Source of the DNA: Candidatus Nitrospira allomarina
Lineage (GTDB): Bacteria; Nitrospirota; Nitrospiria; Nitrospirales; UBA8639
Direction of reading: 5' to 3'
NCBI RefSeq assembly: GCF_032050975.1
Contig: NZ_CP116967.1
Location: 4,151,001 to 4,215,000, forward strand
Length of the DNA stretch: 64,000 nt
Part shown: positions 8,419 to 19,730 of the stretch, in pieces
Position numbering within the stretch: the first letter of the stretch is position 1
Layout: the number at the start of each line of letters is the position of its first letter
Position numbers and translations under genes: made by a program
The notes under the pieces: model-generated
What the model was told of the DNA's origin: nothing
The model's database searches: none
The model's input: the letters and a program-made list of their open reading frames with translations, nothing else

Positions 8419-9309
8419 ATGAAGCCCATGACTCCTATTGAAGCACAGACGTTCTGCACCAAATATACAAAAGAAAGTGGCAGCAACTTCTACTACTCTT
8501 TTTTGTTCCTGCCACAGCAACGGCGGGAAGCCATGTACACCATTTATGCCTTTTGCAAAATGGTGGATAGCGCCGTTGATGAACCGGCCCCGGGAAGCCA
8601 TCCCATCGAAGAAGTCCGCAAATGGCGACAAGAGGTGACGGCCACCTATCATGGCCATCCGACCCAACCGGTCACATTGAGCCTCGCCGCCCACTTGCAG
8701 ACCTTTGACATCCCGGAAACTCTCCTTCAAGAATTAATTTCTGGTGTAGAAATGGATTTGACTACCAATCGGTTTGCGACGTTTGCCGATCTGTATCAAT
8801 ACTGCTACAGGGTCGCTTCAGTGGTTGGACTGATTTGCCTCAAGATTTTCCAAACCAAATCCCCTGCGGCGGAGGACTATGCGGTCAACTTGGGATTAGC
8901 ATTTCAATTAACGAATATTCTTCGTGATCTCAAGGGGGATGCCGAGCAGAACCGCATCTATCTTCCGCTCGAAGACTTACAGCGTTTTGGTTATTCGGAA
9001 CATGCTCTTCTGCACCAGCAAAGGTCGCCCGCGCTGGTTGAACTTCTGAAATTTGAATGCGAAAGAGCTCGCACCTATTACCGCCAAGCTCAAGAAATTC
9101 TCCAAACCCTTCCCCCCTCCGATCAAAAATCGCTGGTGGTTTCGGAAATCATGCGTGGAGTTTACAGCCGCATTCTCAAACAACTCGAAGACCCGCACTA
9201 CGAGGTGTTCGGCCCACGGGTTCGAGTCGCCCCCCTCCAACGACTCGGGATTGCCGCTCATATTTGGATTCGGTCTTTTCTTTCCCATAACATTGCTCCA
9301 TCAGTGTGA
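8419..9309 (+). CDS. hpnD: Presqualene diphosphate synthase
   Basis: A 296-residue squalene/phytoene-synthase-family enzyme. In the three-step hopanoid squalene pathway HpnD joins two farnesyl diphosphates to presqualene diphosphate. Seen here: SGSNFYYSFLFLPQQRREAMYTIYAFCK at the N-terminus, the first Asp-rich motif MVDSAVDE, RVASVVGLICL, and the second motif NILRDLKGDAEQNRIYLP. The stop overlaps the GTG start of hpnE by 2 nt (GTGA), so translation is probably coupled. HpnD rather than phytoene synthase is chosen because of the hpnE partner. hpnC is not in the window. Two in-frame ATGs (8419, 8428) are possible starts; the Shine-Dalgarno is weak. Confidence 0.88.
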   Translation: MKPMTPIEAQTFCTKYTKESGSNFYYSFLFLPQQRREAMYTIYAFCKMVDSAVDEPAPGSHPIEEVRKWRQEVTATYHGHPTQPVTLSLAAHLQTFDIPETLLQELISGVEMDLTTNRFATFADLYQYCYRVASVVGLICLKIFQTKSPAAEDYAVNLGLAFQLTNILRDLKGDAEQNRIYLPLEDLQRFGYSEHALLHQQRSPALVELLKFECERARTYYRQAQEILQTLPPSDQKSLVVSEIMRGVYSRILKQLEDPHYEVFGPRVRVAPLQRLGIAAHIWIRSFLSHNIAPSV

Positions 9310-10694
9310 CACACCACATTCTGATACTGAGCGGAAATCTGCCAGGATTACTCGCGGCTTATCGGCTCATTCCCTACGGATTCCGGATCACCATTCTCGA
9401 AGACGACAACCCTGTCTCTCCGGCACCATCATCTCCCCCATTTGCAAAATCGATAGAACCGGATCATCCACCATCCCTGCAACGCCTCACGACGCAGCCC
9501 TCCCCACTCATTATCCCACGGTATTACCATGCCACATGGGGACTTTTTCAGGAACTGGCCTTTGAGCACGCAGCCCAATGCATTCAACCGGTGGACCTGG
9601 AATTTGGGACATCCGAAGGTCAACCACTCACCCTCTCCAACGCGAAGGGCATTGCGACACTTCACCCCATGATCCGACTCGCCGGATTTCGTGCTCTTCC
9701 CTGGTCAGATCGCTGGCACTTGATTAATTTTTTAGAAAAAAAATGGGAAGAACCCCGTTCCCCGGATCACCACCCTGACATGCTCACCGTTGAATCCTGG
9801 CTGATTTCCGCTCAACAATCGGCTCTTGCACGACAACGTATCTGGAATCCATTCTGTCGATTGTTTTTAGGATGTGATGTGACCCAGGCATCACTGGGGT
9901 ATTTTCTGGAAGTACTTTCTCGATTCTGGTTATCCAAACCAAATGGACCAGAAACATTCTTAGCCTCACCTGACATGCAGAGCCATCTTCAACAAAAACT
10001 CAGACATGTCCTAATAGAAAAAGGGGTCACGTTTTATCCTTCAAACGCCATCACCGCTATCCATGCCGACACCGAGCGGATTCAAGTCATTGGCCTGGCT
10101 ACAGGCGAACGCCTCAACGCCGACATCTACGTCTCGCCCCTTTCCCCTCCAGAGCTTCTTCGACTCCTGCCGGAAAGAGCCCCGGCTCGCTTTTCGTGTT
10201 TTTCCCATTTGGCTCAACTGCAAGAATCATCAGGAACACTTGTCCGATTGACCCTTAACGACACACTTCTTCCTCCTCGGCTTATCCTTAATACCGGTGT
10301 ATTTGATTGGGTTACCAGCCAGGCAGTTCAGCATACTGATGGCGCCAAAACGTCTATCACGGGCTTCAACCTTTCCCCTCCGCAATCCTCAGGACATACC
10401 GACGACTGGCTGAAAGAAACGGTCTGGCCTCATATCAAAAAAATACTTCAAATCTCTCCTGAGCAATCAATCCCGTCCGGTGAGCCATCCGTCACGCAAT
10501 CAGCTTACCCATATCTTCCTTGCCTGACTGGTTACCGCACCTTTCGCCCTCTGCCCAACACACCCATTCCCAATCTTTTTCTTGCCGGCCCCTGGACGGC
10601 CACCCCACTCCCCCCTTCTCTGGAAAGCACGGTCCTGAGTGCCTATGCCTGTGCCAGGGCTGTGACTGAATGGGTCCAGGCGTCTTCACATTGA
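9306..10694 (+). CDS. hpnE: Hydroxysqualene dehydroxylase-like FAD protein
   Basis: A 462-residue amine-oxidase/phytoene-desaturase-like protein, in HpnE position directly after hpnD. HpnE reduces hydroxysqualene to squalene using FAD. The start is GTG, overlapping the hpnD stop. The N-terminal dinucleotide motif is degraded: SGNLPGLLAAYRL where homologues have GGGxAGLxAAxxL. The middle (IWNPFCRLFLGCDVTQASLGYFLEVL) and the C-terminal FAD-closing motif (NLFLAGPWTATPLPPSLESTVLSAYACARAV) are well kept. Substrate assignment rests on the operon partner. Confidence 0.82.
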   Translation: MTHHILILSGNLPGLLAAYRLIPYGFRITILEDDNPVSPAPSSPPFAKSIEPDHPPSLQRLTTQPSPLIIPRYYHATWGLFQELAFEHAAQCIQPVDLEFGTSEGQPLTLSNAKGIATLHPMIRLAGFRALPWSDRWHLINFLEKKWEEPRSPDHHPDMLTVESWLISAQQSALARQRIWNPFCRLFLGCDVTQASLGYFLEVLSRFWLSKPNGPETFLASPDMQSHLQQKLRHVLIEKGVTFYPSNAITAIHADTERIQVIGLATGERLNADIYVSPLSPPELLRLLPERAPARFSCFSHLAQLQESSGTLVRLTLNDTLLPPRLILNTGVFDWVTSQAVQHTDGAKTSITGFNLSPPQSSGHTDDWLKETVWPHIKKILQISPEQSIPSGEPSVTQSAYPYLPCLTGYRTFRPLPNTPIPNLFLAGPWTATPLPPSLESTVLSAYACARAVTEWVQASSH

Positions 10695-10728
10695 CATACT
10701 AAACCGTCAAACCTAAGATCCCCTCTCA

Positions 10729-11388
10729 ATGGATCTTCATGAACTCAAATCATCCCTGCACGACTGCCGACGATGTGGATTGTGTTCAGGACGCACGCAG
10801 GTCGTGTTTGGGACAGGGCATCCTCAGGCTGACATCATGTTTGTCGGAGAAGCCCCGGGCTTTTATGAAGACCGGCAGGGAGAGCCTTTTGTCGGGGCGG
10901 CAGGAAAATTACTCAACGAGTTACTGGAATCTATCGGGCTCAGTCGGGGGGATATTTTTATTGCCAACGTCATTAAATGCCGGCCACCCAACAATCGAGA
11001 TCCTCTTCCAGAGGAAATCGAGACATGCAAACCGTTTCTGCTTCAACAAATCGAACTCATCAAACCTAAATTGGTTTGCACTTTAGGAAACTTTGCCACA
11101 CAGACGTTATTGGAAAGAAAAGTCGGTATCACCAAAGTGCGTGGGCAGGTCATCCGAATGCCCAACTTCATCGTCTTCCCACTGCTTCATCCGGCAGCCG
11201 CACTCCACCAGGGAAATCTGCGAATTCCTCTCAAGGAAGATTTCCAGAAACTGAAGACGGTTCTGGAAGAAATGAGCAAAACTCCCACCCTCCCGCAAAC
11301 CGCGTCACCGCCAACCCTTCCCCCATCAAAAGCCTCCTCCAAAGAAGAGACCTCAGCCGAGCCTCCTACACAAATGAGCCTGTTCTAG
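10729..11388 (+). CDS. udg: Type 4 uracil-DNA glycosylase with [4Fe-4S] cluster
   Basis: A 219-residue family 4 uracil-DNA glycosylase that removes uracil from DNA at the start of base-excision repair. Cluster ligands are visible: Cys13 and Cys16 (CRRC, with an extra Cys19), Cys84 (VIKCRPPNNRDP) and Cys100. Active-site motif GEAPGFYEDRQGEPFVGAAG is at residues 40-59, and LLHPAAAL gives the second His-containing motif. After the catalytic domain comes a Pro/Ser/Thr-rich tail of about 35 residues ending in QMSLF, which fits the bacterial sliding-clamp-binding pentapeptide (QxSLF). It is the last core gene before the accessory island. Confidence 0.92.
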   Translation: MDLHELKSSLHDCRRCGLCSGRTQVVFGTGHPQADIMFVGEAPGFYEDRQGEPFVGAAGKLLNELLESIGLSRGDIFIANVIKCRPPNNRDPLPEEIETCKPFLLQQIELIKPKLVCTLGNFATQTLLERKVGITKVRGQVIRMPNFIVFPLLHPAAALHQGNLRIPLKEDFQKLKTVLEEMSKTPTLPQTASPPTLPPSKASSKEETSAEPPTQMSLF

Positions 11389-11413
11389 AAACCATTTAAT
11401 CAATTTACTGGCA

Positions 11414-11630
11414 GAGGCTGGGGTTCGGCCCAGCAGCCGAGGTTTTGCCTGATGCGTCTCGAAGAGCGCGACCTTTGTTGTGGAGGCAAAAGGACCCAAA
11501 ACCATTGACGTCCCGCCCGGCCTCATAAGATTGATCAGACGCGAAGGGCGGAGACGGGCTAACTCGCGGCGCTCACACAAGCCCGCCAAGAAAAAGAGCG
11601 TCCGATCATGGGGTCGGGCGGCAGGCGTCG
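11414..11630 (+). repeat. Structured dispersed repeat, copy A
   Basis: The first of three related copies (A here, B at 11700-11889, inverted C at 15206-15398). Shared landmarks in order: a G/C hairpin, a CTTTTG/CAAAAG hairpin, CCAAAACCAxTGACG, a CCCG/CGGCCTCAT block, GGCTAACTCGC, AAGCCCGCC, AAAAAGAGCGTCC, CATGGGG and GGCAGGCGTCG. Hairpin 1 of this copy is GCTGGG (11417-11422) with CCCAGC (11429-11434). The second hairpin is disrupted by about 20 extra bases, so this copy looks the most decayed. No coding function is evident. Confidence 0.8.
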
Positions 11631-11699
11631 AACCAAAGGATCCTCATGCGTCAACGCTTCATCATATTTGTAGAGATCGTGTCGGCGTGATGTTCTGTG

Positions 11700-11889
11700 T
11701 TGCCGGGTTTCGCCCCGGCAGGCGAGCCACTTTTGTTTCGGCAAAAGTGGCCAAAACCAATGACGCCCCGTCTGGCCTCATGAGAGGGGACGGACGCCAA
11801 CTTGCGGAGAGCGGACCAACTCTCCTGGTTCAAACAAGGTCCGCAGGGGAAAAGAGCGTCCCTCCCTTTGCCCAGACGGCAGGCGTCGG
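11700..11889 (+). repeat. Structured dispersed repeat, copy B
   Basis: A direct copy of A and inverted relative to C. Hairpin 1 is TGCCGGG/CCCGGCA (11701-11707 and 11714-11720). Hairpin 2 is GCCACTTTTG/CAAAAGTGGC (11726-11735 and 11742-11751), a perfect 10-bp stem with a 6-nt loop. In copy C the equivalent stem reads GGCCCTTTTG/CAAAAGGGCC: both arms changed and pairing was kept. About 70 nt separate copies A and B. Confidence 0.85.
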
Positions 11890-12311
11890 AGTTCTCAGCT
11901 ACTCTGTCATTCTGAGCCACCGGCGAAGAATCTGTGCCCAGCCAACGAACGTATTCGTACTTGCAAAAAGACCTGGTGGATTTGCGTGTTTGGTTTCGGC
12001 CTCGAATAATTCTCGAAAAAACACAAATCTTTCCTTGACATATTTCGACGATTATTAAAATATCTCCTGGCCTGAACCTTTCAGGAAGTGATTCAATGGA
12101 TTAGCAGTTCGGGTGCCGGGCTTTGAGCTCATTCTAGAAGGTGGTGTGATGCCGATCTGAAAAAATCATGTGATAGATGGTCCCATAGTCGTAACTCATT
12201 CAAACGGAAATAATGATGGCGTTTTGCTCACGAAATTCGATGGAGTGCTATATGCACATAAAATCAGCACTCGGATCTTATGCGGGTCGGTCTACGTAAT
12301 TGGTTGCTCCC
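11890..12311. other. Non-coding left part of the island
   Basis: About 420 bp between repeat B and the P-loop kinase gene. Base composition becomes more AT-rich after 12,000. An open frame from 12170 (68 codons) lacks a Shine-Dalgarno and resembles nothing known. A small inverted repeat CCTGAA/TTCAGG is near 12,070. No integrase, attI or transposase is recognisable. Confidence 0.35.
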
Positions 12312-12773
12312 ATGTCGCTGAAAGAAATAACGGAAAACCATCTCTTACTTGTGCAACTGCTCAAGAAAGTACTTAATCCATGGAGGAAATTTACAATAGC
12401 CATCGATGGTGTAGACCATTCGGGAAAATCGACCCTTGCAAGGTTTCTTGCCTGGCAGCTAGAGATGCCCGCTATTGAGACGGACCTTTACCTATCCGGA
12501 TCAACAATGGTGCCATCTTACCATTGGAAGAAACTTAGCCTTCTTGTCCAATCTCGGCATAGACTCAATCGGCCTGTGATCATTGAAGGTGTTTTTGTTA
12601 AAAAGATACTTGAGCAACTGAAAGTTAAGCCTGACTTCTCAATTTACGTGGAGTGTTATGCATACACAGGCTCCGAAGAATGGCAAGAGGAATTTGCAAG
12701 ATACGCTATACAGTACTCACCCAGGGATACTGCACAATTCTTGTTTGTGAACCCTGGATCCGAGGGGAGCTAG
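12312..12773 (+). CDS. Short P-loop kinase-like protein
   Basis: A 153-residue protein with a uridine-kinase-like P-loop fold. Walker A is GVDHSGKST (residues 33-41). The acidic ETDLYL resembles the substrate-binding Asp region, and RPVIIEGVF (about 97-105) the Walker B strand. It is shorter than typical nucleoside kinases and lacks an obvious LID arginine cluster, so it may be a stand-alone small kinase or a truncated gene. The ATG at 12312 begins MSLKEI; a TTG at 12300 is in frame, and neither has a clear Shine-Dalgarno. It is the first gene in the island and is followed by the duplicated remnant R1. The substrate is unknown. Confidence 0.6.
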   Translation: MSLKEITENHLLLVQLLKKVLNPWRKFTIAIDGVDHSGKSTLARFLAWQLEMPAIETDLYLSGSTMVPSYHWKKLSLLVQSRHRLNRPVIIEGVFVKKILEQLKVKPDFSIYVECYAYTGSEEWQEEFARYAIQYSPRDTAQFLFVNPGSEGS

Positions 12774-12801
12774 CAACGATTTCGGGAAGGACCCAGAGCG
12801 T

Positions 12802-12899
12802 GCTTGGGGTGAGATCCTGCGATATGATTATGGATGATTATGCATTGGAATAGTTGAATGAAGCTGAAAGCCGAACGCGTGATTGCAAGTCCTGACCCC
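12802..12899 (+). repeat. Duplicated decayed coding remnant R1
   Basis: A 98-bp block that aligns without gaps to 14395-14492 (R2), 72 of 98 bases identical by my count, rising to near identity over AGCTGAAAGCCGAAxGCGTG. Differences cluster at third positions of one frame, in which both encode LGxRSC...ALxxLxEAESRxRxC. R1 carries an in-frame TAG there, so it is a relic. It runs into the 5' end of the HEPN-like ORF. Confidence 0.7.
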
Positions 12900-13379
12900 A
12901 GAAAACAGAAAGTGACCCCAGAAAGGAGCCCCGGTATACTGGCACGTGAGTGGCTACAGCGGGGGAAGTTGGCGCAATCGCCGATTGATGCATTCACCGA
13001 CTTCTGGCGTGCCTTCAACAACCTTTACAGCGCTCATCCCGGTATAAGGGAGATCGAAAGAGTTCGTGCGTTTTTGATGGCCAGAGTGCCATCTGTAGCC
13101 GCAGCAACGATACTCTCGTCTCATCAAGAGCAGGTCGACTATCTCTTGTCGCAACCAGTCAGTGACATGCGCGGTAATGGCCGAAATACCAAAACTGCAG
13201 TCGCGGCTTTCCGCGCAGGCGGTAGCGATCAGGAAAAGCTCTGTGAGCTGTTCACAATCATCTATCAAGTCAGATGCAACCTACAGCATGGCCAGAAGTC
13301 ACCGACTGTCGATCGGGACCTGCGTCTTTGCGAGTGCTCGGCTCCGGTAGTGGCGGAAGTCGTCGCATGCTCCGTATAA
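12858..13379 (+). CDS. HEPN-like protein ending in an attC-like site
   Basis: A hypothetical of up to 173 residues with a HEPN-type signature. The motif IIYQVRCNLQHGQKSP contains R-x4-H (Arg139, His144 counting from the ATG at 12858), the RNase motif of many HEPN toxins and defence proteins, followed by a charged RDLRLCE helix. The upstream segment is helical (AFTDFWRAFNNLYSAHPGIREIERVRAFLMAR). The first 14 codons lie in repeat R1, in a different frame from the coding frame of R1, so translation may really start downstream (for example the in-frame GTG at 12912). The TAA stop lies within the GTATAAC end of the attC-like site, as in integron cassettes. RNase activity is inference. Confidence 0.6.
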   Translation: MKLKAERVIASPDPRKQKVTPERSPGILAREWLQRGKLAQSPIDAFTDFWRAFNNLYSAHPGIREIERVRAFLMARVPSVAAATILSSHQEQVDYLLSQPVSDMRGNGRNTKTAVAAFRAGGSDQEKLCELFTIIYQVRCNLQHGQKSPTVDRDLRLCECSAPVVAEVVACSV

Positions 13380-13420
13380 CTATTAGCTCAAGCGGACGCC
13401 GCTTCGCTCAGGCGTTAAAC
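13374..13420 (+). other. Integron attC-like recombination site (short form)
   Basis: A 47-bp site bounded by GTATAAC (13374-13380) and GTTAAAC (13414-13420). The latter fits the GTTRRRY core; the former is one base off its complement GTTTAAC. Inside are CTCAAGCGGACGCCGCTTCG and CTCAGGCG, closely resembling the arms of classic attC sites (TTCAAGCCGACGCCGCTTCG... in aadA-type sites). The region between the arms appears shortened. It overlaps the HEPN-like stop codon and precedes the next start by about 20 bp. No integrase gene is in the window. Confidence 0.6.
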
Positions 13421-13439
13421 CAATTAGAGAAGGTGTAAT

Positions 13440-14357
13440 TTGAGAATGAAAGATTATAGGGATTTTCCAACGCTGCAAATTCTAAAAGAGATAGAAAACT
13501 CGCCTACTATGAGATTGATGCGTGCTTTGGAAAATTTTCCTGCCATGAAGATGCTCCGGAAACTTGAGGAATCCAGCGCAATGGCATCAATCAGGCGGCT
13601 GGAGGATTCGTCGTCTATGCGGGCTATCCGCCAGCTTGAGAATTCTTCGGTAATGCTGGCTATGCGTGAACTTGAGGACTCACCAGCCAACGCTGCGTTA
13701 AAGAAACTTGAAGAGTCCCCAGCCATGGAGGCGATTAGGAACCTTCGGGATTCTCCGGCATTAAGCGCTATTCGTGCAATCCAAAACTTGCCGGTCATGC
13801 GAGCGTTCTCGGAAGTGGCAGATCGATTGGCGTATGCCTACGGTCCGCTCACCCTCAGAAATGCATATAACGAAATTATTAGGAGCTATGAACAAACCAC
13901 TGCTACGTCTTCAATAGACCCCTTTGAGGCTGTATTCGCAGACGTTCAGAAACAAGCAGATCAGTCTCCTGCAGAAGCCTTAAGTGCTGAGTTCTTTCTG
14001 AGTTTAGTATTTGCGTTTTTCTTGTTTTCATTATCTCAAATGGAAGCTTCTGACTCAGAAGATCGCATAATTCGTCAGATTAAAGATTTGGAGGATCGGA
14101 TTGTTCAGCAGTTGGAAACCCTGCAGGGCAGTGAGCAAAACGACACTTTTTATGTTGTTGAACGACCTCTGAATTTAAGAGCGGGTGCTGGGAAAATGCA
14201 CGAAGTGAGGGAGGTTTTACCTTCCAATTTAAAAGTGCGTGCAACTGACAGACAGGCGCACTGGGTTAAAGTGGAATACTACGACTATCTAGAGCGAAAA
14301 ATAAAAACAGGCTGGGTGGATGAAAGGTATTTGGTGCTGATAGGTTCCCGCAAATGA
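13440..14357 (+). CDS. Protein with ten 12-residue repeats, a membrane helix and an SH3-like domain
   Basis: A 305-residue protein, family not recognised. Residues 10-129 are ten consecutive 12-residue units of consensus S-P-A-M-x-A-I-R-x-L-E-D/E/N-type (for example PAMKMLRKLEES, SAMASIRRLEDS, PAMEAIRNLRDS), probably an extended helical array. Next come a helical spacer, a hydrophobic segment (FFLSLVFAFFLFSLSQ, about 184-200), a coiled-coil-like stretch (DRIIRQIKDLEDRIVQQLETL), and a C-terminal bacterial SH3 domain (ERPLNLRAGAGKMHEV, HWVKVEYYD, KTGWVDERYL). The TTG at 13440 has AGAAGG 6 nt upstream; the ATG at 13446 is the alternative. It follows the attC-like site directly, so it could be a former cassette gene. 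Function unknown. Confidence 0.65.
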   Translation: MRMKDYRDFPTLQILKEIENSPTMRLMRALENFPAMKMLRKLEESSAMASIRRLEDSSSMRAIRQLENSSVMLAMRELEDSPANAALKKLEESPAMEAIRNLRDSPALSAIRAIQNLPVMRAFSEVADRLAYAYGPLTLRNAYNEIIRSYEQTTATSSIDPFEAVFADVQKQADQSPAEALSAEFFLSLVFAFFLFSLSQMEASDSEDRIIRQIKDLEDRIVQQLETLQGSEQNDTFYVVERPLNLRAGAGKMHEVREVLPSNLKVRATDRQAHWVKVEYYDYLERKIKTGWVDERYLVLIGSRK

Positions 14358-14394
14358 TCACGATTCCGGCTCAAAAAAGGGAAATACTGTCGAT

Positions 14395-14492
14395 GCTTGG
14401 GTTCAGGTCTTGCCATATAACAGCAGATGGACACGCTCTGGGATATTTGAGTGAAGCTGAAAGCCGAATGCGTGCTTGCAATACCAGAACCC
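14395..14492 (+). repeat. Duplicated decayed coding remnant R2
   Basis: The partner of R1 (12802-12899), same orientation, 72 of 98 bases identical without gaps. Here the shared frame is open, from an ATG at 14354 that overlaps the preceding stop (ATGA). It gives a 50-codon ORF containing LGFRSCHITADGHALGYL and SEAESRMRACN. Whether this is expressed or only less decayed than R1 cannot be told. R1 and R2 bracket the HEPN-like and 12-residue-repeat genes. Confidence 0.65.
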
Positions 14493-14626
14493 ATGCCCTT
14501 CTTTGAGGACCGACGCCCCGTATCGTTGAGGTCCGGTGGAGATTCGATTAATGTCATCGAACTCTCCACTGGGACCAAATGGCCTCCGGGCTACAAAGTC
14601 GCGGACTCCGTTGGGTGTGACCTAAA

Positions 14627-15034
14627 CTAAATCGACTCCCAAACTTGCCTAAAGGTACCCGGTGTTGGCACACGAATATTGAACCAATTCTCACGGCAAA
14701 CCGCTGCTTGCTCCTGCCTGACGGATCTCCCTGGGTGAAGAACGACCTCATCGCCGGGAATGCCGGTTTCTTGAGTCACTACAATTACGTTAAGAGGCGG
14801 CAAATCGTTGCTTTTGCAGTACTCGCCTATGATACCGAGTTGTCTGCCAAGAACATGGCCCGCTCGGCCGTCTTGACCCATCTTTGTGGCTAATTTGCCA
14901 TAAGTAATGGTTTTCCTTTTGGTTCTCCCTTCCTCACCAAACATCACAAATGCTACAAGAACCATCCAGATCTGCTGTGCCTGCACGTACAATCGGTCGC
15001 CCCGCTGGTACCGCTTCACCTTCGGAATATTCAT
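14627..15034 (-). CDS. Small protein resembling an alkyltransferase-like winged helix
   Basis: 135 residues, cytoplasmic. The start is the ATG at 15034 (MNIPKVKRY), chosen because AGGAGG lies 5 nt upstream; the longer frame to 15232 runs into repeat C. The central segment TITYGKLATKMGQDGRAGHVLGRQLG resembles the DNA-binding winged helix of O6-alkylguanine transferase-like proteins (TxxYGxLA...ARxVG). The rest, YCKSNDLPPLNVIVVTQETGIPGDEVVLHPG and FNIRVPTPGTFRQVWE, looks like a conserved, still unnamed family. The transferase PCHR motif is absent. It is the only intact minus-strand gene in the island. The domain link is inference from a short pattern. Confidence 0.65.
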   Translation of the reverse strand: MNIPKVKRYQRGDRLYVQAQQIWMVLVAFVMFGEEGRTKRKTITYGKLATKMGQDGRAGHVLGRQLGIIGEYCKSNDLPPLNVIVVTQETGIPGDEVVLHPGRSVRQEQAAVCRENWFNIRVPTPGTFRQVWESI

Positions 15035-15205
15035 AGCACCTCCTGAATCTGTGAGCGCATTAGAATATACATGTGCAGTTCTGCTCAAATCGCTCAAAGA
15101 GTGATTATGGCCAGGTCTTTGAATATAGTATAGAGAGATCCGAAAATTCAGCCCATGCTGAGTTATGTCGTGGAGCTTTTCTTCTCCCTTTCTTCTTCCT
15201 TTCCC

Positions 15206-15398
15206 CGACCAACGCCTGCCGTTCGGCCCCATGGGCGGATGCTCTTTTCAGCCGGCGGGCCTTGTCTGAGCCTGGCGAGTTGGTCCGCCCTCATTTCCTA
15301 CATCCGCCCAATCCGATGAAGCCGAACGGGGCGTCAATGGTTTTGGGCCCTTTTGCCGGAACAAAAGGGCCTCGGCTGCCGGGCCGAAACCCGGCAAA
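15206..15398 (-). repeat. Structured dispersed repeat, copy C (inverted)
   Basis: The inverted copy of A and B, closing the island on the right, and the best-preserved copy. On the plus strand, hairpin 2 is GGCCCTTTTG (15346-15355) with CAAAAGGGCC (15362-15371), a perfect 10-bp stem with a 6-nt loop. Hairpin 1 is TGCCGGG (15377-15383) with CCCGGCA (15390-15396). The remaining landmarks of copies A and B follow in reverse order to 15206. No open frame is shared among the copies. Confidence 0.85.
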
Positions 15399-15610
15399 CT
15401 TTTGATTGGCTATGCTCATTGGTCAGATAACGAGAATCTAACTTGGGATGATAAAGAATGGATACCCGCTTACAACTGCGGGGATGACGGAAATTTGATG
15501 GATATGCTCACCCCCACCAAGAACAGCAAGGCGAGCTACGCTCCGGATGCACCCGAGAGAATACTTTCCCTCAACACTTCAATGTGTTTCATAATTTCCC
15601 CCCTAAGAAA
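15399..15610. other. Island-edge spacer
   Basis: About 210 bp between repeat C and the end of the acyltransferase pseudogene. A 70-codon frame (15402-15614) has no Shine-Dalgarno and ends across the pseudogene boundary; I do not support it as a gene. Confidence 0.35.
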
Positions 15611-16150
15611 TTAAAGGGATTCCTTACTCGGACGAACCCCTTGGGGGAATTGCAGGGATTTCCAATATCGAATACCCGCTTTGCTCGGAACAAACAGGGT
15701 TTTAAGCATCGTCTCTACGAAAAGGGGGGCCGTCCCAAACAATAGACGCCGGGATCACAGGCGCACCTGATTTGATCGCCAAATAGCCAACACCCAAATG
15801 CCCCGCATCTAAACGATGCCGCCAATCCAATCCGCCTTCCGGAAAAAGGCCGATCACCTCCTGCGCTGCCAAACCATCTAACATCGTGCGAATCGCCCGG
15901 ATATCCCGCTTGCCTCTTTTTACCGGAATACACCCAAACGCGTGAAACACCCAACGGATGTGTAACTGAGCATAAATCTCTTTCGCCATTAAAAACCGGA
16001 TAGACGAGCTGCGGTGGCCCATAAGACCAATGGGTCCGACATGGAGGTATGGTCACAAACAATCAACGCCGGCCCCTGAACTGAAACCGGGCAAGGCAAC
16101 GCGGCCGTCACCCCATACATGAGCCGACAGACCAAGGAGTTCAATTGATG
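15611..16150 (-). pseudogene. Frameshifted PlsC-like acyltransferase
   Basis: Remnant of a 1-acylglycerol-3-phosphate acyltransferase-type gene, readable only by switching frames. The upstream frame gives LNSLVCRLMYGVTAALP, then ALIVCDHTSMSDPLVL, which matches the NHx4D motif with Asn replaced by Asp. A shift near 16020 moves to SSIRFLMAKEIYAQLHIRWVFHAFGCIPVKR, the FPEGG motif and SGAPVIPASIVWDGPPF. A second shift near 15716 moves to VETMLKTLFVPSKAGIRYW and a stop at 15611-15613. The 5' end is not clear: an in-frame stop lies just above 16150. It abuts the island, suggesting decay after insertion nearby. Confidence 0.8.
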
Positions 16151-16302
16151 TAACGAAGTGTGGACGAAGCCCTGTCAGGTGCTTAGAACTGGCAACATTA
16201 AAGACGAGAAAGGCGGAGGAGGTTGGTTTCCATCATGCTCCCCCATGCCATTACTCTAAAATTTAGGCTCAAGGGATCTGAAGGAACCGTACAGAAAGGA
16301 AT

Positions 16303-16800
16303 TTAGGTGACGGTTTTTTGGGGGTGCGCGGCGTCTGTAGGACCTGAGGCCTCCTCCCCCTCAGCCAACGACTCTGAATCATCAGACGACTCGCCGTCTG
16401 TGGCATCTTCGACCTCTTCTTCTGGTTCTTCAAACCAATTGACGAGCATGTCTTCCCACCAGGCCTCATTGACTTCCGAACCGGGATCTTCTCCAAAAAA
16501 TTCTGTCACCTGGTCTTTGGTAAAACTCGGATCAATGACCGTGGGTTTAAACAAGGCACGATCAATCACTTCCTTGGTGGCAAAGCCGCCCACAATCCAA
16601 GAAGGTGGATCGGCCCGGCGGGATTTGTAGGCTTGTAGCCCGACCTTAAGATACAGAAACGCTTTCCGTTGATCTTCGTCTTTCAATCCTGATGGGGGCA
16701 AACTTAAAGTCTTTTCAATTTTCTTTCTCCATTCCCGTGCATTGTACCGGGAAGTGATCAACTGGAGAACTTTTACCCCATCCTCTTTTTCCAGTGGCAT
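16303..16800 (-). CDS. Hypothetical acidic-tailed protein
   Basis: 165 residues, not recognised. A globular N-terminal part (about residues 1-120: LQLITSRYNAREWRKKIEKTLSLP, KAFLYLKVGLQAYKSRR, VGGFATKEVIDRALFKPTVIDPSFT) is followed by a very acidic low-complexity tail (EEPEEEVEDATDGESSDDSESLAEGEEAS). No signal or membrane segment. AAGGAG is 5 nt before the ATG. It lies downstream of tldE on the same strand (94 bp gap), so it may be the last gene of a tldD-tldE transcript. Confidence 0.7.
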   Translation of the reverse strand: MPLEKEDGVKVLQLITSRYNAREWRKKIEKTLSLPPSGLKDEDQRKAFLYLKVGLQAYKSRRADPPSWIVGGFATKEVIDRALFKPTVIDPSFTKDQVTEFFGEDPGSEVNEAWWEDMLVNWFEEPEEEVEDATDGESSDDSESLAEGEEASGPTDAAHPQKTVT

Positions 16801-16894
16801 CCTGACTCCTTATGGCCCTCGGGCCGCTTTTTGAATTCATGAAATAGAATAGGTAATCGATAGACTCTTGAATGGGTTCTTGTCCTCTATACCT

Positions 16895-18265
16895 CTAATG
16901 ACCGGCAACCATCATCTTGCGAATTTTAACCGTAGGACTGGCCACCCGGCCCCGAAATTCTAAATCATTCCCGACCATTTCAATATCCTTCAGGATCTGT
17001 TGTAAATTCCCGGCAATAGTGACTTCTTCCACCGGATGGGTTAGCTCTCCATTTTCAACCCAAAATCCCACCGCTCCCCGTGAATAGTCTCCCGTGACAA
17101 GGTTAACGCCAAATCCAATCAGATCCGTGACGTACAACCCTCGCTTCATTGACTTGAGAATTTCATCTGGTGAATAGGAGCCTGGCGAGAGAAATAAATT
17201 CGTGGCACCCACTGTCGGATTTTCCCCCACCGATCTTGATGCATTGCCCGTGGATGCCATTCCCAATTTTCGTCCTGAATACGTGTCTAACAGATAACTC
17301 GACAGCACGCCTCTATCGATCACTAAAGTTTTTCTCGTGGGCAACCCCTCACCATCAAATGGTCGAGACCCCAGCCCTCCGGCTAATCGACCATCATCAA
17401 CCACTGTCACCATATCTGAGGCAATAGATTTTCCGAGTTGTCCCAACAGAAACGAGGCCCCCTTATACAAGGAGTACCCGGATACCGCTGAGGAAATATG
17501 CCCAAGGAGGCCTTTGGCCGTTTCCGGATCGAAGATCACGGGAACTTCTTGTGTCGTAATGGCCCGACTGCCCAGGCGCCTCACGGTTCGGCGAGCGGCC
17601 TCCTGTCCAACCGATTCCGGGCTATCCAATTCATGAAATTTACGCTTCACGGAGTACCAATAGTCCCGCTGCATACCGCCATTTTGGCTGTCCAACGCGA
17701 TGGGCGACACGGAGAGTGAATAGGAAGAACTGGCGTACGACCCAACAAACCCATGGGAATTCGCCAACAGGATCGATCCATAGCCAGCCGAACACTCGGC
17801 CCCTTCAGAATTGGTGATGCGGGGATCTGCGGAAAATGCGGATTGTTCGGTTCGCTTGGCCAGGTCTATTTCCTCATCAACCGCCAATTGCCGATCATCT
17901 TTCATATCCATGTCAGGGATATCGACCACCATTTGATCCGGCGCTGGCAGTCCTGAAGTCTCATCTTCAACCACAGCTTTGGCCAAACTACATGTGTCAC
18001 TGACTAAACGATCCAACGAGACTTTGGAAAAATCCGATGTAGAAGAACTGGCTGACCGCTTGCCAAAAAACACCCGAATCCCCAAGACTTTCTCACGGGC
18101 TTTGGAGAGCCGATCCACCTCTGACATCCGCACCTGCACAGAGACTGAATCGCCTTCCGCTACAAGAAGATCCGCCTCCGTCGCCCCTAAAGCCTTGGCT
18201 CGTTTGAGAACCGTGGCGGCCAACTCGGGGAAACGGTCACCATGTGTAAGGGGCAAATTTGACAT
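16895..18265 (-). CDS. tldE: TldE/PmbA metalloprotease subunit
   Basis: TldE (PmbA), the non-metal subunit of the TldD/TldE heterodimeric protease that trims unfolded or modified peptides. From ATG 18265 (MSNLPLTHGDRF) it has 456 residues. The open frame extends to a GTG at 18322 that would overlap tldD, but that extension (ARRWADGYPSCF) does not look like the family. Typical segments: LLVAEGDSVSVQVRMSEVDRLSKA, VPVIFDPETAKGLLGHISSAVSG, RPFDGEGLPTRKTLVIDRGVLSSYLLDTYSGRKLG and GFGVNLVTGDYSRGAVGFWVENGE. The HExxxH site is absent, as expected for this subunit. It follows tldD by about 37 bp. Confidence 0.92.
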   Translation of the reverse strand: MSNLPLTHGDRFPELAATVLKRAKALGATEADLLVAEGDSVSVQVRMSEVDRLSKAREKVLGIRVFFGKRSASSSTSDFSKVSLDRLVSDTCSLAKAVVEDETSGLPAPDQMVVDIPDMDMKDDRQLAVDEEIDLAKRTEQSAFSADPRITNSEGAECSAGYGSILLANSHGFVGSYASSSYSLSVSPIALDSQNGGMQRDYWYSVKRKFHELDSPESVGQEAARRTVRRLGSRAITTQEVPVIFDPETAKGLLGHISSAVSGYSLYKGASFLLGQLGKSIASDMVTVVDDGRLAGGLGSRPFDGEGLPTRKTLVIDRGVLSSYLLDTYSGRKLGMASTGNASRSVGENPTVGATNLFLSPGSYSPDEILKSMKRGLYVTDLIGFGVNLVTGDYSRGAVGFWVENGELTHPVEEVTIAGNLQQILKDIEMVGNDLEFRGRVASPTVKIRKMMVAGH

Positions 18266-18302
18266 TATTAAATGGAAAGAAACAAAACAGGAGGGATATC
18301 CA

Positions 18303-19730
18303 TCAGCCCATCGCCGTGCCACCGACGATCATTTCATCGATTTTAATGGTAGGAAGTCCCACGCCGACGGGAACCGATTGTCCATCTTTTCCACAGGTCC
18401 CAATTCCTTCATCTAATTTCATATCATGTCCAACCATCGAAACTTTCTTGAGCACATCAGGACCGTTCCCAATCAACGTCGCTCCCTTGACCGGTTTGGT
18501 CACCTTCCCATCTTCGATCAGATAGGCTTCGCTGGCTGAAAAGACGAATTTTCCACTGGTGATATCAACCTGCCCACCCCCAAACGACACCGCATACAAA
18601 CCGTTTTTCACCGACCGAATGATATCCTGCGGATCGGATTCCCCTGCTAACATAAAGGTATTCGTCATACGTGGAAGGATAATACTCCGGAAATCCTCCC
18701 GTCTTCCATTTCCTGTTAACGGGATACCCATCAAACGGGCATTGAGGCGGTCCGTGATATAGCCGCGCAACACACCTTTTTCAATCAACATGGTTCGTGA
18801 CGTCGGCGTCCCCTCATCATCGATGTTCATCGAACCACGCCGAAATGGGAGCGTTCCATCATCCACGATGGTGCATAATTCGGATGCGACGGATTTCCCG
18901 ACTAAATCACTAAAGGCTGAGGTTTTGCGACGATTAAAATCCGCTTCCAACCCATGTCCGATGGCTTCGTGAAGCAGAATACCCGGCCATCCCCCACCTA
19001 ACACAACCGGCATGGTGCCGGCCGGAGCTTCAACCGCGCCCAGATTTACAATCGCCTGACGTGCAGCTTCTCGGGCAAACTCCATCGCGCGGTTCTGCTC
19101 CAGGTAAAAGGCAAATCCGACCCGCCCCCCACCTCCAAATGAGCCAACCTGGCGATTGGCTCCATCTTCGGCAATACAGCTAATTTGAAGACGAGAGAGA
19201 GGCTGCACATCCCCCACCAGTTGCCCTTGGGAGTTGATGACTAAGAATATTTTCTGTTCCGTGTTAAAAGACGCCATGACCTTGGTAATTCGCGGATCAT
19301 AACGCCTGGCTTCCACGTCAATTTTATTCAGTAAATCAACCCTAGCTTCGGTTGTAATGTCGGTGAGCGGCTGAGACAACGGATAGAGATTTTGGGAGGG
19401 CTGAGAACGATGAGTGACGGCTATGGGGTTGTCCCCTTGGGGAGAATCAGCAATATACCGTGCGGTATCAGCGGCTATTTCCAGGTCTCGTACAGATAGA
19501 TCATCTGAATAGGCAAACCCGGTTCGTTCTCCCGCCACCGCTCGAACTCCCGCCCCCTGGGAAATACTTTTGACTGCGCGCTTGACCAGGCTTTCCTCCA
19601 TAGAGACGGAATCGGTCACGCAGGACTCGACATACATGTCCACGTAATCCACTCCACGAGCAGTGGCCTTATTTAAGGCCTGGAGGACATCCTTTTCTTG
19701 GAGGGCAAAATCTGAAAGGCTGGGTACCAT
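18303..19730 (-). CDS. tldD: TldD metalloprotease subunit
   Basis: The zinc-bearing subunit of the TldD/TldE protease, 475 residues. The metal site is HEAIGHGLEADFNRR: HEAIGH at residues 254-259 with Glu262 downstream. The N-terminal domain (SLVKRAVKSISQGAGVRAV) and the C-terminal region (DEGTPTSRTMLIEKGVLRGYITDRLNA, KPVKGATLIGNGPDVL, GTCGKDGQSVPVGVGLPTIKIDEMIVGG) match the family end to end. It is the promoter-proximal gene of tldD-tldE and divergent from uppS with a 227-bp spacer. Confidence 0.95.
   Translation of the reverse strand: MVPSLSDFALQEKDVLQALNKATARGVDYVDMYVESCVTDSVSMEESLVKRAVKSISQGAGVRAVAGERTGFAYSDDLSVRDLEIAADTARYIADSPQGDNPIAVTHRSQPSQNLYPLSQPLTDITTEARVDLLNKIDVEARRYDPRITKVMASFNTEQKIFLVINSQGQLVGDVQPLSRLQISCIAEDGANRQVGSFGGGGRVGFAFYLEQNRAMEFAREAARQAIVNLGAVEAPAGTMPVVLGGGWPGILLHEAIGHGLEADFNRRKTSAFSDLVGKSVASELCTIVDDGTLPFRRGSMNIDDEGTPTSRTMLIEKGVLRGYITDRLNARLMGIPLTGNGRREDFRSIILPRMTNTFMLAGESDPQDIIRSVKNGLYAVSFGGGQVDITSGKFVFSASEAYLIEDGKVTKPVKGATLIGNGPDVLKKVSMVGHDMKLDEGIGTCGKDGQSVPVGVGLPTIKIDEMIVGGTAMG

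Follow-up and report, generated by a model that had tools for sequence, protein, structure and literature searches.

Four kinds of described system come closest to a structured repeat which occurs in three copies, A, B and C, around a small accessory island in the genome of Candidatus Nitrospira allomarina. The stretch analysed here, referred to as the window, covers 64 kb (bases 4151001-4215000 of the 4,553,057-bp single-contig genome). Miniature inverted-repeat transposable elements (MITEs) share with the elements carrying this repeat a length of ~400 bp, inverted ends, a constant duplication length, a large number of copies and the lack of room for a transposase, but the body is here a conserved fold of ~193 nt which is also found without ends and within a second kind of ends. 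Repetitive extragenic palindromes (REP) and their composite forms, bacterial interspersed mosaic elements (BIME) and REP doublets (REPIN), mobilised by REP-associated tyrosine transposases (RAYT), are likewise palindromic, intergenic and present in many copies, whereas the fold described here is much longer and multi-stemmed, and no Y1 domain was found in the genome. The attC arrays of integrons are similar in that long hairpins recur in runs of one orientation, accompanied by cassette-like genes; unlike in them, gene orientation varies here and no tyrosine recombinase was found near the repeat clusters. Finally, the site resembles defence-island hotspots by its conserved flanks and its strain-variable cargo, with defence and toxin-antitoxin-like genes, but it is bounded by copies of a structured repeat and not by prophage or tRNA sites.

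The reading that we favour, and consider probable without being strongly so, is that the cores of old transposons act as portable homology at a defence-type hotspot, where the exchange of cargo is aided by recombination. A, B and C would be arm-less cores of a genus-wide structured element of ~193 nt, dispersed, in the subset of copies where this was demonstrated, inside a non-autonomous MITE of ~403 bp. As portable homology, such cores would have accumulated on both sides of the interval between the convergent udg gene and acyltransferase/tldE block. Recombination between copies would alter their number, as observed at the left edge, and would probably help to swap the cargo, whose excision or insertion would not be carried out by the repeats themselves. 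The cargo may have come by attracted insertions or by exchange through the flanking genes, the data being compatible with both. Taken by itself the island resembles an ordinary hotspot, and what sets it apart is its frame, made of self-recombining, transposon-borne folds. If correct, this reading links small non-autonomous transposons, a deeply conserved fold and defence-gene turnover between core genes, which are usually studied apart.

The frame of the island is made of the following features:
10729-11388, plus strand: udg, uracil-DNA glycosylase, left core flank (Pfam UDG, 125 bits)
11400-11640, plus strand: copy A, core only (profile score 115 bits; aligned with relatives)
11680-11894, plus strand: copy B, core and ~20 nt of the MITE 5' arm (profile score 215 bits)
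15207-15402, minus strand: copy C, core only, inverted (profile score 177 bits)
15702-16022, minus strand: acyltransferase open reading frame (ORF), first core gene rightward (PF01553, positions 41-131 of 132)
16895-18322, minus strand: tldE, right core flank (gene order the same in relatives)

The arrangement proposed in the first-pass annotation, two direct copies on the left and an inverted one on the right, was confirmed by a repeat search of the window (A/B direct, A/C and B/C inverted, B and C being 83% complementary over 95 nt with additional blocks) and by the scores of a profile built from the same genome, which are far beyond chance for the three copies. With this profile, no copy besides A, B and C was found in the 64-kb window at E≤1e-3. 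The copies surround ~3.3 kb of accessory genes, between udg, for which 15 of the 20 genus genomes have a match at E≤1e-40, and the acyltransferase/tldE block. In copy A an insertion of ~30 nt separates hairpin 1 from hairpin 2, copy B corresponds to positions 121-338 of the 403 of the MITE profile, and relatives have a different stem subtype at the place of copy C. The acyltransferase ORF holds a partial domain, and the gene region is absent in one relative (locus L107 of genome G010); it may be a decaying gene.

A blastn search with copy B gave at least 46 matches in the N. allomarina genome (40 of 92 candidates scored), and 81 profile matches, partials counted, were obtained in the window and 19 stretches of this genome around known copies; these totals are lower bounds, blastn having missed at least one copy, near 147 kb, that was found later. 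The repeat is present in all 20 genomes of the genus, N. allomarina included, in two of four genomes from other genera of the family, and in none of 16 from the rest of the order. Similarity between copies mostly ends at the edges of the fold, which delimits a unit of ~193 nt composed of hairpin 1, a short linker, hairpin 2, CCAAAACCA, and a three-tier long stem with the apical loop AACTCGCNNNGCTCAAACA. Over 57 aligned copies, pairing is found in 95.1% of cells and both partners vary in 21 of the 41 pairs, a value reached by none of 500 shuffles and by no slid version; this covariation supports the fold of the core. A pseudoknot between CGAG of the linker and CTCG of the apical loop was rejected, inspection of A1 by eye giving no covariation in its favour. 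A second stem subtype, with unrelated stem sequences and the same hairpins, linker and apical loop as the usual core, was observed in the right-hand copies of five loci of relatives (L107, L108, L110, L111 and L105). The stems look free to vary, with two modules, the 5' part and the loop, kept constant. Rfam (release 15) returned nothing over A, B and C up to E 1, and two matches below gathering score in the 9000-17500 region (E 0.14 and 0.69). No description of this repeat was met in the portions of the literature consulted, including those of PMC10579370.

Such covariation could indicate that the core is maintained site by site as a functional structured RNA or a 3'-end regulatory element, as could the preference for convergent gaps reported below. 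When copies occupying corresponding positions in three species were compared (20 pairs), the identity of the core was 0.76-0.94 and exceeded that of both 150-nt flanks in 14, often narrowly, which is weak evidence for constraint because indels break many flanks. A flank was more alike than the core in the other six, poor flank values often coming from indels. Against a functional RNA, no strand is favoured, since 103 copies have no excess of G-U cells (80) over A-C cells (124), two near-constant U-G pairs being excluded; moreover, relatives have lost some single copies or show them fused. We find this explanation quite improbable.

The vehicle of dispersal was identified for a subset of the copies, the common flanks of which close in inverted repeats. 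These terminal inverted repeats consist of the 20-bp GGATCATNCAGAATNTATGG and its reverse complement and form 27 pairs (at most five mismatches per end and eight in all, spacing of 300-600 bp), 22 of them in 19 of the 20 stretches fetched around ends (L291 gave none) and five at other loci. At up to two mismatches, the GGATCATNCAGAATNTATGG pattern occurs in 17 of the 20 genomes of the genus, against none for the reversed-letter control. The core is enclosed in 24 of the 27 pairs. The eight bases flanking the ends agree at six or more positions in 22 of 27 pairs, perfectly in seven, compared with 7% of random pairings, and the other lengths between 2 and 12 gave a single perfect match, at 2 bp, so that the duplication has a constant length of 8 bp. 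The consensus built from 19 intact copies is 403 nt long and its profile has 70 matches of at least 60 bits in the N. allomarina stretches, four of them full length. The idea that the repeat was spread by transposition is borne out for these elements, in which it forms the core of a MITE that duplicates 8 bp, and not for the copies of the window. The first-pass suggestion that the repeats mobilise the island is not supported: A, B and C have no MITE ends, no target duplication borders the core, and no parent transposase was found. The latter search, restricted to the IS1595 and ISL3 families, revealed no GGATCATNCAGAATNTATGG end pair at 56 transposase loci (30 of 43 IS1595 matches and 26 ISL3), and the N. 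allomarina genome has no match to either family.

Recombination between neighbouring copies left traces at the left edge of the island. In the relative G014 (L108), two left-hand copies match A and B in their body (0.93 and 0.94) and in their respective upstream flanks (0.78 and 0.65), the downstream flank of the first being unlike both (0.25 and 0.17). The relatives L110, L111 and L105 have one left-hand copy each, which is a chimera of A and B. Its upstream flank is A-like (0.70, 0.82 and 0.70, respectively, and 0.35-0.38 with B) and its downstream flank B-like (0.96, 0.62 and 0.68, compared with 0.34, 0.42 and 0.37 for A), with a body that is B-like in L110 (0.93 vs 0.70) and A-like in L111 (0.85 vs 0.71) and L105 (0.94 vs 0.69). 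Differing joins of the same two parents are the trace expected from homologous recombination of direct copies, and these sequence comparisons show that adjacent copies recombine and thereby change the copy number at the left edge. The entry of cargo by means of the repeats is unsupported.

The site itself was compared among relatives found with the udg protein, mostly Nitrospirales or Nitrospirae metagenome-assembled genomes (NPIRA, UBA8639 and others). The upstream gene order and the acyltransferase-g16303-tldE-tldD block are widely conserved where contigs reach, and the interval between udg and this block is variable. A tblastn search (E≤1e-5) with the four island proteins gave no match in the 43 loci of relatives examined, and the cargo differs there. 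Near-empty sites are found in L085, L087, L088 and L090, where the udg and acyltransferase matches lie 209-233 bp apart. In L107 (udg 95% identical) the island is absent, with one partial repeat and no acyltransferase match. Four relatives have repeats on both sides of a differing cargo: in L108 a relative of PD-Lambda-3_A (defence model at E 9e-34) together with an FRG protein (model FRG/PDC-S15 at E 5e-23), a 717-aa ATPase in L110 (UBA8639), a nucleotidyltransferase and an unknown protein in L111 (NPIRA06), and a PIN match below cut-off with an unknown protein in L105 (NPIRA03). Another sublineage (L080, L081, L082, L084 and L115) presents, in place of defence-like genes, a YdbH / small lipoprotein / DUF1318 set and 0-2 repeats, these YdbH-type calls being based on Pfam for two L081 genes and on reading of the translations for the others. 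With the conserved flanks and strain-specific cargo of a defence hotspot, the site is a hotspot for defence or toxin-antitoxin-like genes in relatives, and would also be one in the window.

Several points weigh against the reading that we favour. With regard to the vehicle, 41 of the 70 MITE-profile matches reach neither 60 nt into the 5' arm nor 25 nt into the 3' arm. Those of the window copies are confined to positions 121-348 of 403, and these copies display neither MITE ends nor target duplication; because arm-less copies dominate and those of the window have no ends, the decay of cores from MITEs is assumed rather than demonstrated. Moreover, the edges of the core are sharp and coincide with the limits of the fold, which suits an independent unit, and a second, unrelated inverted end, CTATAGTNATTCCAATNAATTTCC, also encloses cores in elements of 345-584 bp (L043, L055, L125 at 11971-12316, L128, and L132 at 17217-17561). 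This pattern has 25 matches in 877 kb at up to five mismatches, against none for reversed letters, and each match lies inside a core-bearing element or no more than 121 nt away from one; the five places gave no established target duplication. The pattern search had been prompted by the top rows of a blind scan for inverted ends around 116 copies, which alone shows nothing, with seven copies at the 95% level of the null compared with 5.8 expected by chance. Sharp edges and two kinds of ends would fit a core that is itself mobile, for instance by way of an RNA or of single-stranded folded DNA, and was acquired by unrelated MITEs; the same holds for the recurrence of its architecture in other genera and Pasteurellaceae-like contigs and for the free variation of stems beside an unchanging loop and 5' module. 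We nevertheless consider a mobile core unlikely. Over 108 copies, target duplication at the core's own edges was at the level of the null, and the N. allomarina genome has no match to the Y1 transposase family of RAYT (PF01797) or to the reverse transcriptase family of retrons and group II introns (PF00078). No clean core-only empty site was found, and the one candidate, in G014 compared with G010 and N. allomarina, has short unaligned edges and is blurred by other indels.

With regard to the site, L089 has a gap of 1.5 kb without repeats, the contigs of L111 and L105 stop short of the acyltransferase, and a right-side cargo join inside the repeat is not proven: the 60 nt shared there are conserved in all copies, and for this reason no cargo join is claimed on the right. 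In addition, 35 of 62 repeat matches in nine N. allomarina stretches are flanked on both sides by genes matched in G010 or G014 (24 on one side and three on none), and consequently the repeats have no exclusive tie to accessory genes. These neighbour matches were taken from fetched G010 and G014 loci, so a missing one may correspond to an unfetched stretch, and some are paralogues, such as the 41% ones in L054.

The placement of copies bears on a further alternative, in which the repeats play no part in the hotspot: cargo would be swapped by homologous recombination of the conserved flanking genes, and the repeats would be passengers gathering in convergent intergenic gaps. In the N. allomarina stretches, repeats occupy 15 of 33 gaps between convergent genes, compared with 21 of 120 between co-directional genes and 6 of 37 between divergent ones; the values are 12/33, 31/126 and 7/33, respectively, in G010 and G014 together. 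These counts, like the accessory blocks mentioned below, come from stretches picked around repeats, without random control. The gene caller discarded ORFs covered by repeats over more than 40% of their length, so that the count of 0 copies inside genes is partly by construction. This preference, the frequent copies between matched genes and the sublineage with a different operon and few or no repeats are all in line with passengers. We regard this alternative as rather unlikely, for cargo is flanked by repeats on both sides in L105, L108, L110, L111 and the window, and copies recombine. Elsewhere in the N. allomarina genome, a C5-methylase/HNH/Vsr-like block lies between oppositely oriented repeat clusters (L044 6380-9439, at 3636-3639 kb), in a layout resembling that of the udg island, and a SIR2-like block near 3445-3453 kb is repeat-flanked, the genes of both being read from translations.

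Local runs of repeats in the same orientation, with toxin-antitoxin-like genes between them (names read from translations), recall an integron-like array in which the repeat would be the recombination site and the genes the cassettes. This is very improbable: neighbouring genes are in both orientations, attC core boxes were not recognised by eye, and none of five tyrosine-recombinase matches is near an array, the full ones (556795 and 1744283) and the nearest partial one (3375355) lying at least 50 kb from the clusters; IntI identity was not among the tests.

As judged from sequence comparisons, the fold looks older and wider than the genus. Within the family, the covariance model of the core matched three genomes outside the genus, belonging to two genera; in all, four of 148 genomes of the phylum matched, N. 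allomarina included (17 candidates per genome scored, strict filters); absence elsewhere in the phylum means little because few candidates were scored and the filters were strict. The nine loci fetched matched at full length, with scores of 91-109 bits. Searching viral contigs for exact occurrences of the loop yielded 91 stretches, of which 80 were readable; 75 contexts had enough flank, and 32 of them are distinct. Of these 32, 11 combine an inner stem with a hairpin upstream that is followed by an A-rich tail, compared with 0.063% of 3,200 shuffles, by criteria fixed after a first look. One viral contig type has full-length model matches down to E 2.5e-7, values that are inflated because the loci had been selected by the loop, and in the other types matches are mostly short or weak where there are any. 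Hairpin 2 in its Nitrospira form, A-rich tail included, was found in 0 stretches of the viral contigs. Seven contigs of the first type (three nearly alike) contain AAGTGCGGT, which we take to be the Pasteurellaceae uptake word, 2-9 times vs 0.04-0.08 expected; it is absent from the other nine contigs counted. With one copy as query, blastn aligned half of its length, at 77%, with three Pasteurella multocida plasmids. Plasmids gave no match to the window copy, a sister-genus copy or the L161 copy, phages gave only two 37-nt matches, and 12 viral loci had no Rfam match at gathering score. The architecture of the core and its loop are seen again in the Pasteurellaceae-like contigs and, less surely, in other viral contigs. 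A broader and more tentative proposal, which is possible but short of probable, is that the core represents a cross-phylum, unnamed class of structured mobile elements, riding unrelated ends and seeding defence-gene hotspots in convergent gaps, with a constant 5' module (a hairpin, often a second one, and an A-rich linker), the apical loop AACTCGCTNCGCTCANACA and free stems. The likely presence of the fold in distant bacteria would provide a searchable signature for a class unmatched by Rfam release 15.

The accessory genes and a second repeat family inside the island are the following:
12300-12773, plus strand: P-loop kinase-like ORF (sub-cut-off Pfam matches only, best Cytidylate_kin, E 0.0019)
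12801-12900, plus strand: second repeat family, copy 1 (74% identical to 14394-14493)
12858-13379, plus strand: HEPN-like ORF (open-frame limits only; first codon within the second repeat)
13440-14357, plus strand: 12-residue-repeat protein with C-terminal SH3_3 (31.4 bits, cut-off 27)
14394-14493, plus strand: second repeat family, copy 2 (repeat search)
14627-15034, minus strand: winged-helix-like protein, 135 aa (start at 15034 inferred; no Pfam match)

The four genes named by the first-pass annotation are all present as open frames, and no transposase was recognised among the island ORFs scanned, as it had stated. Pfam agrees with its label for the repeat protein (SH3_3) and stays below cut-off for the kinase; the HEPN-like and winged-helix-like labels have no curated match, MauJ (E 0.03-0.05) being the only one obtained. 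Among the four proteins, only the P-loop ORF matched defence models, weakly (best E 0.0012). An R-x4-H motif (RCNLQH), spotted by eye, accompanies the HEPN-like label, for which we assume it to be significant; this protein (the piece from 12942 on) was found in one of 295 genomes of the phylum, that of N. allomarina. The open frame of the winged-helix-like gene begins at 15232, within copy C, and an ATG at 15034 after AGGAGG appears by eye to be the better start. Its relatives over at least 80% of the length occur in 11 plasmid records, small Klebsiella plasmids included, with 36.9-40.5% identity among the eight records listed of the 11. The second repeat, direct and 100 nt long, brackets the HEPN-like and 12-residue-repeat genes and has relatives in L110 and L118 (relatives), L054 (two places of the N. 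allomarina genome) and L123 (G010). It ends in TGCAAGTCCTGACCCC, presumably the kind of motif found beside RAYT transposases.

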